Assembly (NCBI RefSeq): GCF_021029445.1 | Contig: NZ_CP072610.1 | Coordinates: 1,426,001-1,490,000, forward strand | Origin: Pseudomonas wenzhouensis | Lineage (GTDB): Bacteria > Pseudomonadota > Gammaproteobacteria > Pseudomonadales > Pseudomonadaceae | DNA length: 64,000 nt | Reading direction: 5' to 3' | In this document: piece by piece, positions 13,687-16,004 of the stretch | Numbering within the stretch: position 1 is the first letter of the stretch | Layout: each line of letters starts with the position of its first letter | Notes under the pieces: generated by a model | Databases searched by the model: none | Told to the model about the DNA's origin: nothing | The model's input: only the letters and a program-made list of their open reading frames with translations | Position numbers and translations under genes: made by a program

Positions 13687-13704
13687 TATGGCGAATGTCT
13701 TACA
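13687..13704 (+). promoter_or_regulatory. Possible GacA upstream activating sequence
   Basis: Rsm RNA genes of Pseudomonas carry an upstream site of the form TGTAAG-N6-CTTACA bound by the response regulator GacA. Here the right half CTTACA (13699-13704) is perfect while the left half (TATGGC) matches poorly. The site would lie about 57-74 nt before the inferred start of the RNA, in the usual range. Supportive but not decisive. Confidence 0.45.
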
Positions 13705-13727
13705 GGCGATGACGGCAACCGCCACTG

Positions 13728-13754
13728 TTGCCTGTGCGGGCCGATCACTAATCT
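13728..13754 (+). promoter_or_regulatory. Candidate promoter of the Rsm-like small RNA
   Basis: TTGCCT (13728-13733) and TAATCT (13749-13754) separated by 15 nt resemble weak sigma-70 -35 and -10 elements, as expected for an activator-dependent promoter. Initiation would fall near 13761, 10 nt before the first GGA hairpin. Confidence 0.45.
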
Positions 13755-13760
13755 ACACCC

Positions 13761-13868
13761 ATCCCCTGCAGCGACGGATCGCTGAGGATTACGGAAGATG
13801 ACCATGCCAGGAAGGCTGCCGACAGGATGTTGGATGGTTGAGAAGAAACCCGCTTCGGCGGGTTTTTT
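13761..13868 (+). ncRNA. rsmX: RsmX-type small RNA that would sequester RsmA/CsrA
   Basis: About 108-nt non-coding RNA inferred from structure. Six GGA motifs are present (13776, 13786, 13793, 13810, 13825, 13832). Three lie in the loops of short hairpins, the hallmark of CsrA/RsmA binding sites: GCGA-CGGA-TCGC (13771-13782), GCC-AGGAA-GGC (13806-13816) and CCGAC-AGGAT-GTTGG (13819-13833, one G-T pair). A strong intrinsic terminator closes the unit. Such RNAs (RsmX, RsmY, RsmZ) titrate RsmA/RsmE and so relieve translational repression under GacS/GacA control. The short size fits RsmX best, but assignment among the three is tentative. The start is inferred from a weak -10. A group II intron lies just past the terminator. 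Confidence 0.8.
13847..13868 (+). terminator. Intrinsic terminator of the Rsm-like RNA
   Basis: AACCCGC-TTCG-GCGGGTT stem-loop (7 bp, UUCG-type tetraloop) followed by a T-tract. It is a textbook Rho-independent terminator, and such hairpins are the preferred landing sites of bacterial group IIC introns. Confidence 0.9.
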
Positions 13869-14416
13869 GTTGGTGCGCCCGGCAGGGCGCACTCACTCAG
13901 GGGTGAAAGTCCCCCGCACACCCGGCAAGGGGAAGTGCTAGCTAGAGGCAAGGGTTTCGCGGGCGACTGCGAGTCTGAAGGAAGCCCGAGGCAAAGCGCT
14001 GGCCTGACGAACAGGAAGCGGATACGAGGCGGCATGGCGGGGTAAGCAGTCCATAATCTACGAAGCCCAATACTTGCACAGAACGCCATGACGTAGATCC
14101 GACAGGCATAAGCGTGAAAGTGGGTGCGCAATACCCGGGGAGATCTGCACGGTTGCCCGTCAGGGCCACCGGCACCGTGAGGTGCCGGGATGACCGCGCA
14201 GAAGTCAGCAGAAGGCATAGTAGGTCGCAAGACTGAAGGCCCGAACGATCAATACCGAGAGTAGGACAACCGATCTCGACAACCCACGATGATGCAGAAG
14301 CTCCCGGCACGGGAGGCCTGCCTGCCAGTGCCGGACGGAATCCGGACAGAAGCCCGCTAGGTGCTGAGGGGGTTGCGGCGACGGCTGGGCGAACGAAATC
14401 GGAGGACTATCGGCTC

Positions 14417-15676
14417 ATGGAGCAGGTGGTCGAGCCCAGCAACATGCGACGAGCGTACAAACGTGTCCTGAAGAACCGAGGCGCAGCGGGCGTTGATCGC
14501 CTGACGGTCGAGGAACTGAAGGACTGGCTGTTGGTGCACTGGTCAAGCGTGAAGACGACACTGCTGGAAGGTCGTTATTTGCCACGGGCAGTACGTCGAG
14601 TGGACATTCCCAAGTCGAATGGCGGGGTTAGAACACTTGGCGTTCCCACGGTGGTGGACCGACTCATCCAGCAGGCACTTCATCAAGTACTGCAACCGAT
14701 CTTCGAGCCCACGTTCTCCGATGGCAGCTACGGCTTCCGTCCACAGAGAAGTGCACTCAATGCGGTGGCCAAGGCGAAAGAGTACGTAGCTGACGCAAAG
14801 CACTGGGTGGTGGACATCGATCTGGAGAAATTCTTCGACCGGGTCAACCACGACGTGCTGATGGCTCGACTCGCCTATCGAGTGAAGGACAGTCGCGTCC
14901 TGAAGCTGATTAGGCGCTTCTTGGAAGCGGGGATGATGGCTGATGGTGTGATCCAACCTCGCAACGAAGGCACGCCTCAGGGTGGGCCGCTGTCCCCATT
15001 ACTGTCGAACATTCTGCTGACCGATCTGGATCGGGAGCTGGAAAGGAGGCAGTTGAAGTTCTGCCGCTACGCTGACGACTGCAACATCTACGTCGGCAGT
15101 GAAAGCGCAGGGCAACGGGCGATGGCGAACATCAGAGCCTTCCTGGAAGGTCATCTGAAACTGCGTATCAACGAGCAGAAAAGTGCAGTGGCACGGCCCT
15201 GGAAGCGGAAGTTTCTGGGTTACGCGATCACCATCTACCGCAACGAGGCACGGGTGCGAGCTGCACCGCAAAGCCTGCGTAGGCTGATGGATCGAGTTCG
15301 CGAGTTGCTGCGCAAAGGGCGAGGACGATCCTTGCCGCGTACCATCGAGACGCTGAATCCCGTCCTGCGGGGTTGGGCTAACTACTTCCGGCTGACCGCG
15401 AACATGCGAGCGCTGGACGAACTCGACTGGTGGCTGCGTCGAAGACTGCGTTGCCTGCTTTGGCGGCAGTGGAAAACCCCGAAAACCCGTGAACGCCGAC
15501 TCATTTCGCTTGGGCTCAAGCCTGAGCGAGCATGGAAATCGAGCGTCAACGGGCGTGGGCCTTGGTGGAACTCTGCCTCTAAACACATGAATCAGGCCGT
15601 GCCAACACTGTATTTCGCCCAAATGGGGCTGGTCTCGCTGCGCAGCACTGTGCAGCGACTCCAGTGTATGGGTTGA
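14417..15676 (+). CDS. ltrA: Group II intron reverse transcriptase/maturase
   Basis: 419-residue intron-encoded protein. Reverse-transcriptase blocks are intact: VRTLGVPTVVDRLIQQAL (RT2), YGFRPQRSALNAV, VVDIDLEKFFDRVNHDVLM (RT3), GTPQGGPLSPLLSNILL (RT4), the catalytic YADD at residues 218-221 (RT5), and KFLGYAI (RT7). The maturase/X domain follows (LNPVLRGWANYFRL). The protein ends soon after that with no H-N-H endonuclease, as in class C introns, which use nascent DNA to prime. It would promote splicing and retrohoming of its own intron. The ATG at 14417 lies within intron domain IV. Confidence 0.95.
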   Translation: MEQVVEPSNMRRAYKRVLKNRGAAGVDRLTVEELKDWLLVHWSSVKTTLLEGRYLPRAVRRVDIPKSNGGVRTLGVPTVVDRLIQQALHQVLQPIFEPTFSDGSYGFRPQRSALNAVAKAKEYVADAKHWVVDIDLEKFFDRVNHDVLMARLAYRVKDSRVLKLIRRFLEAGMMADGVIQPRNEGTPQGGPLSPLLSNILLTDLDRELERRQLKFCRYADDCNIYVGSESAGQRAMANIRAFLEGHLKLRINEQKSAVARPWKRKFLGYAITIYRNEARVRAAPQSLRRLMDRVRELLRKGRGRSLPRTIETLNPVLRGWANYFRLTANMRALDELDWWLRRRLRCLLWRQWKTPKTRERRLISLGLKPERAWKSSVNGRGPWWNSASKHMNQAVPTLYFAQMGLVSLRSTVQRLQCMG

Positions 15677-15742
15677 ACCGCCGTATGCGGAACCGCACGT
15701 ACGGTGGTGTGAGAGGGCTGAGGGAGTAATCCCTCACCCTAC
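15677..15742 (+). other. Group II intron domains V and VI
   Basis: Domain V: 9-bp lower stem (ACCGCCGTA with TACGGTGGT, containing a CGC triad), 2-nt CG bulge at 15698-15699, upper stem TGCG/CGCA with a GAAC tetraloop. Domain VI: AGGG..GAGGGA paired with TCCCTC..CCCT, leaving A15736 bulged as the branch-point candidate 6 nt before the 3' splice site. Confidence 0.8.
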
Positions 15743-15812
15743 TCGATCCTGTAAAAAGTGCCAGGTCATAACGAGAGCCTGATCAATCGCCTAGCTCCAG
15801 CGTTTTAGGCGT

Positions 15813-16004
15813 GGCGCTGACCTGAAAAGCTTCGCCTCGAGGCGGGGTTCCTACGCCAGACTGCTTTTGGTGCGTCAACTGGACGAAGCCCGACGTCATG
15901 CCGCGAACCCGTAGGAGCGGCGCCCCGCCGCGAATCTGCGCGGCGCTGACGCCAAGAGCTTCGCCCCGGGGCGGGGCTCCTACACAAGGCTGCTTTGTGA
16001 GCCT
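15813..16004. repeat. Tandem REP-like palindromic repeats
   Basis: The 290 bp between the intron and the helicase gene hold two near-identical direct copies of about 62 bp (15813-15875 and 15942-16003). Each runs GGCGCTGAC, a palindrome of the form TTCGCC-CG-GGCGGGG, TCCTAC and CTGCTTT. An inverted GTAGGAGCGGC unit (15911-15920) pairs with the second copy's GCTCCTAC to make a REP doublet. No gene was seen here. Confidence 0.7.

Follow-up and report, generated by a model that had tools for sequence, protein, structure and literature searches.

At the locus described here, within a window of 64,000 nucleotides of DNA that was analysed as a whole, a gene for a cytochrome b561-type protein is followed in the same direction by an upstream activating sequence of the GacA type, a probable -10 element, a small RNA gene that ends in an intrinsic terminator, and a group II intron with its own reverse transcriptase/maturase gene (Table 1). 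The b561-type protein is 99% identical to its counterpart in Pseudomonas mendocina EF27 and scored 35.8 bits with the NCBIfam b561 equivalog NF008566, below the cut-off of 170. Judging from this protein and its surroundings, the genome belongs to the mendocina/oleovorans group of Pseudomonas. A preliminary description of the sequence had singled out the interval 13687 to 13868, which runs exactly from the first base of the activating box to the last base of the T-run, as the site of a candidate RsmX-type RNA. The small RNA rsmX is well known, and Pseudomonas uses it to sequester RsmA when lifestyle changes. A covariance model for rsmX was reportedly built by Moll et al. in 2010, going by the title of their paper.

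Table 1. Features of the rsmX locus (positions in the window) and the second rsmX of the genome (positions on the contig)
Feature	Position	Strand	Evidence
Cytochrome b561-type protein, 176 aa	13146-13676	+	ORF; Pfam PF01292, 82.5 bits
GacA-type upstream activating sequence, TATGGC-GAATGT-CTTACA (TATGGCGAATGTCTTACA)	13687-13704	+	Sequence, pattern search, conservation
Probable -10 element TAATCT, no clear -35	13749-13754	+	Conservation
rsmX sRNA, 108 nt, 6 GGA	13761-13868	+	RF02144, 83.1 bits; fold z = -3.15; covariation
Stem-loop 1, CGGA loop (GCGA-CGGA-UCGC at 13771-13782)	13766-13787	+	Rfam structure
Short hairpin 2, ACGGA loop, absent from minimum-energy fold	13788-13799	+	Rfam structure
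Hairpin 3, GCC-AGGAA-GGC	13806-13816	+	Rfam structure, fold
Hairpin 4, CCGAC-AGGAU-GUUGG	13819-13833	+	Rfam structure, fold
Intrinsic terminator, UUCG loop, T-run	13846-13868	+	Rfam alignment; stem conservation
Group II intron, 1,875 nt, class C judged by position; outside rsmX	13873-15747	+	Rfam group-II-D1D4-3, D1D4-1, Intron_gpII
Intron-encoded reverse transcriptase/maturase, 419 aa	14417-15676	+	TIGR04416, 420.6 bits (cut-off 300); RVT_1, GIIM
Second rsmX (L002)	contig 112908-113012	-	RF02144, 72 bits

Identity and structure of the small RNA

When the whole window was searched against all Rfam families, RF02144 (rsmX) matched the small RNA end to end (E = 8.3e-14), with model positions 1 to 114 mapping onto the 108 nt and 83.1 bits against a gathering score of 56; laxer filters returned the same score. 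A search with Rsm covariance models had been named beforehand as the computational part of a test of the RsmX-type reading; the RNA passed it, and the match begins exactly at the predicted start, 13761. Identities as the two sister RNAs were rejected: the RsmY model (RF00195) gave 25.3 bits against a cut-off of 57, and a genome search with the RsmZ model (RF00166) reported no match at this position.

The preliminary description had recognized three hairpins exposing GGA in the loop, and all three lie where it placed them. Its count fell one short, as the Rfam structure gives four GGA loops by adding the short hairpin 2. It had also listed three further GGA motifs, and the RNA does contain six in all. 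By itself that number is unremarkable, being reached or exceeded in 396 of 2,000 dinucleotide shuffles. All six motifs can be placed singly in a loop closed by at least three pairs, which only 6 of the 2,000 shuffles equalled (mean, 2.0). The RNA folds with -42.1 kcal/mol, and none of 200 shuffles was equally stable; this minimum-energy fold pairs the GGA of hairpin 2 with a 5' UCC and hides one GGA.

Pairing according to the Rfam structure held in 87.8% of the cells of a 37-sequence rsmX alignment, compared to 31.2 to 44.2% when the structure was slid along the alignment, and cells with changes on both sides of a pair numbered 31, compared to 5 to 14 in slid structures and 11.6 in shuffles. 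Eleven pairs carried such both-sided changes, a value that none of 500 shuffles reached (mean, 5.3), although shuffling leaves the relatedness of the sequences in place, and the number of pairs separates poorly because slid structures reach 4 to 10 (10 at slide -1). Some pairs were badly kept, namely columns 8-28, unpaired in 34 of the 37 sequences, and columns 14-19 and 52-84, unpaired in 25 each. The terminator stem, AAACCCGC-UUCG-GCGGGUUU, was paired in 99.7% of cells. As the preliminary description had proposed, the transcript region closes with a UUCG terminator, followed by a T-run (T6) to 13868.

An upstream box of the rsmX type

The activating box spans -74 to -57 relative to the predicted rsmX start. 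The classical GacA palindrome is TGTAAG-N6-CTTACA, and the box fits 8 of its 12 positions, while it fits the form TATRGC-N6-CTTACA completely. Describing it as a half-perfect GacA site was correct in placing a box upstream of the RNA but not in implying degeneracy, as this is the usual rsmX form; the label presumably came from comparison with the palindrome. A degenerate GacA site was therefore rejected. The palindrome itself occurs, in perfect form, at -75 of the rsmY gene of this genome.

Across the 4.45-Mb single-contig genome, the pattern YATRGC-N6-CTTACA has exactly two sites, one at -74 of each rsmX gene, and no site when reversed as a control; here the box is specific enough to single out both rsmX copies. 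The narrower TATRGC-N6-CTTACA was present in all 17 orthologues linked to b561 (at -74 in 16 of them and at -71 in the other). Among 25 rsmX loci found with Rfam, a set that overlaps the b561-linked one by a single place (L023 and L046), 19 had both halves of the box, placed at -73 to -75, and 23 had CTTACA. The probable -10 element is conserved as well: every one of the 17 b561-linked relatives has TAATCT at -12, and 18 of the 25 Rfam-found loci have it somewhere between -14 and -5.

Passages of a study of P. brassicacearum (PMC7911923) relate that the box TATAGCGAAACGCTTACA served there to find rsmX-2, whose own box is nearly the same and whose expression depended exclusively on GacA by northern blotting and a lacZ fusion, and suggest that a few changes in the box may account for an 8-fold difference in expression. 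The window box differs from this published rsmX box at several positions.

The cytochrome b561 gene as a neighbor

Given that the box starts just 11 nt past the b561 stop codon and that both genes point in the same direction, the RNA could in principle be a product of the b561 3' untranslated region, or the region could be a mere b561 terminator, without a promoter of its own. We regard this as extremely improbable: a conserved activating box and a -10-like element stand between the stop codon and the RNA, and in 23 of 25 loci rsmX genes scoring over the cut-off lie away from b561, most of them behind a box of this type, the second copy in this genome among them.

With the b561 protein as query, 27 b561 loci were found in named genomes; in 17 of them (L032 to L047 and L049) the order is b561, box, and rsmX, with rsmX as the direct neighbor of b561. 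Rfam scans of the whole of the other 10 loci, whose b561 genes are more distant (46 to 60% identity), found no rsmX, and these loci contained no box-like site. An RF02144 search of 57 genomes, this one included, found matches in 32 and matches over the cut-off in 24, all in one genus of 22; 14 control genomes had none. Only two of the 25 over-cut-off loci, L023 and that of the window, had a b561 gene at a distance of about 1.5 kb or less, and none of 6 loci below the cut-off did. Because this neighbor is so rarely shared among rsmX loci, a functional partnership between b561 and rsmX was rejected as unlikely, and the position next to b561 looks like a clade-specific address.

One P. paralactis locus (L056, positions 1249 to 1375) holds a TwoAYGGAY RNA (RF01731, 61.2 bits; cut-off, 43), a family that shares an Rfam clan with rsmX.

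Gac/Rsm components elsewhere in the genome and on plasmids

The assignment to the Gac/Rsm pathway, also made in the preliminary description, is supported by the presence of GacA, RsmA, RsmY, and RsmZ genes in the genome. One response regulator exceeded the cut-off of NF007018 (GacA/UvrY), with 313.1 bits compared to 280; CsrA/RsmA had one match, an open frame of 67 aa; and single genes were found for rsmY (105 bits, the only one over the cut-off) and rsmZ (106 bits). The Rfam-detectable set of Rsm sponges therefore comprises two rsmX, one rsmY, and one rsmZ, alongside one detected RsmA. The second rsmX is diverged; its stem-loop 1 is different, it has a box of its own, and a sequence similar to it occurs in L025 (genome G027).

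Taken together, the full-length covariance match, the conserved structure, and the box leave us highly confident that 13761 to 13868 is rsmX, a GacA-activated sRNA gene of the Gac/Rsm pathway. Like the rsmX RNAs of P. protegens CHA0, P. syringae (rsmX1 to rsmX5), and P. brassicacearum, it has a full-length match of the RF02144 type and GGA hairpins, and it shares with known rsmX genes the length of 108 nt, a box of the TATRGC-N6-CTTACA type, and the UUCG terminator. It differs from them in sitting behind cytochrome b561 in this clade and in having a group II intron after its terminator. While P. brassicacearum rsmX-1 and rsmX-2 form a tandem pair, according to passages of PMC7911923, the two copies here are dispersed. 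RsmY and RsmZ, encoded elsewhere in the genome, have the pathway and the GGA motifs in common with the window RNA.

Among 72,556 plasmid records, two matched the window rsmX region; on each of them an Rsm RNA scores above an Rfam cut-off and is preceded by a GacA-type box at -75. Only one of these plasmids was recovered with two further rsmX queries, and a phage collection had no match to one rsmX query (L012). On the 586-kb P. luteola plasmid NZ_CP044084.1, an Rsm-type RNA (L103, 3024 to 3136; RsmY model, 67.6 bits; cut-off, 57) lies inside the conjugation (tra) region behind a perfect rsmX-type box, TATAGCAAAAGGCTTACA, and is a putative plasmid-borne sponge RNA; the record has no CsrA over the cut-off (one match, 20 bits). 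The 98-kb plasmid NZ_CP135972.1 carries rsmX (L104, 2975 to 3088; 96.9 bits) near curli-type genes, with the box CATGGCAAAAGGCTTACA. In the available passages of PMC9928087, which deals with RsmQ, a CsrA homologue of plasmids, Rsm RNAs borne on plasmids are not mentioned.

A group II intron directly behind the terminator

Only 4 nt (GTTG) separate the rsmX T-run from the intron start, GTGCG. Bacterial class C introns habitually insert just behind terminators, as passages of PMC8919778 describe, and the window intron resembles them in its GTGCG start, its position a few nucleotides past an intrinsic terminator, and its group II reverse transcriptase/maturase, for which TIGR04416 is a general rather than a class-specific model. 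The corresponding site in the closest relative, P. mendocina EF27 (L032), is empty: the flanks of the window intron, when joined to each other, align to it at 95.7% over 421 nt. The exact junction between terminator and intron was found in 1 of 398 genomes of the genus, the window's own, by an exact-pattern search that misses diverged junctions. Full-length copies of the intron, about 91% identical, occur on four Pseudomonas plasmids. Our literature search returned no paper joining a group II intron, a terminator, and rsmX, and for rsmX in P. mendocina it returned one paper, which concerns microgravity. GC-rich inverted units resembling REP elements (CGTAGGAGCGGCGCCCCGCCGC and GGGGCGGGGCTCCTAC) lie downstream of the intron, at 15825 to 15985, and similar units are found beside the second rsmX.

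An intron immediately downstream, the presence of three more Rsm RNAs elsewhere in the genome, and a score below those of many relatives (the best of which reach 117 bits) would all fit a decaying or functionally altered copy, in which the intron disturbs termination or expression while the second rsmX takes over together with rsmY and rsmZ. This reading is very unlikely: the insertion left the box, the RNA, and the terminator stem with T6 intact, the RNA and the intron-free copy of P. mendocina EF27 differ at a single base of 108, and class C introns behind terminators have a limited effect on host genes (passages of PMC8919778). As the intron starts 4 nt past the terminator, read-through from the rsmX promoter might be the main source of intron transcription, placing the expression of a mobile retroelement and of its reverse transcriptase under Gac control, an idea we consider improbable.

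The genome contains at least three further full-length introns of 1,926 nt, which align to the window intron over 1,894 columns with an identity of about 66% (two of them, L074 and L075, are 99.7 to 99.9% identical to L073), and at least eight short copies (L076 to L083; for example, G000:C1:1700101-1700782) of 682 to 683 nt, which leave no room for a maturase gene; both counts are lower bounds because 40 of 61 candidates were scored, and a degraded piece near 1377818-1378334 was excluded. Seven of the short copies are 93.4 to 99.9% identical to the eighth, L081. A terminator-like hairpin precedes 11 of 12 introns examined, compared to 716 of 20,000 random positions in the fetched loci; seven short copies follow such hairpins, and the twelfth intron, also a short copy, lies directly behind a full-length one. 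Of the full-length element, the short form retains approximately 390 nt at the 5' end and 73 nt at the 3' end. Since it keeps only both ends, mobilization in trans by a resident maturase is the natural reading of these sequences, and it probably applies. Among 76 genomes searched, this genome being one of them, 17 contained related intron sequence, with many of the matches partial, and the spacing of end matches suggests that another genome of the genus (G066) holds a similar set of short introns.

Implications

The RNA at this locus is a genuine additional rsmX and belongs to a well-established class of RNA. A standard covariance scan turned it up at once, and the practical lesson is that Rsm RNA genes carry no open reading frame and are found by covariance models.

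On the evidence of conservation and published work on rsmX, phosphorylated GacA would act through the TATGGC-N6-CTTACA box at -74, and the resulting 108-nt RNA should end at its own UUCG terminator, as strong sequence evidence indicates. From what is known of the Gac/Rsm pathway and of this RNA family, the transcript would be expected to accumulate at high density, its GGA loops would bind and titrate RsmA, and mRNAs repressed by RsmA would be released and translated. It would do so beside the second rsmX, rsmY, and rsmZ, acting on the single detected RsmA. The intron behind rsmX offers a natural test of whether an intron that follows a terminator affects a dosage-sensitive regulatory RNA.
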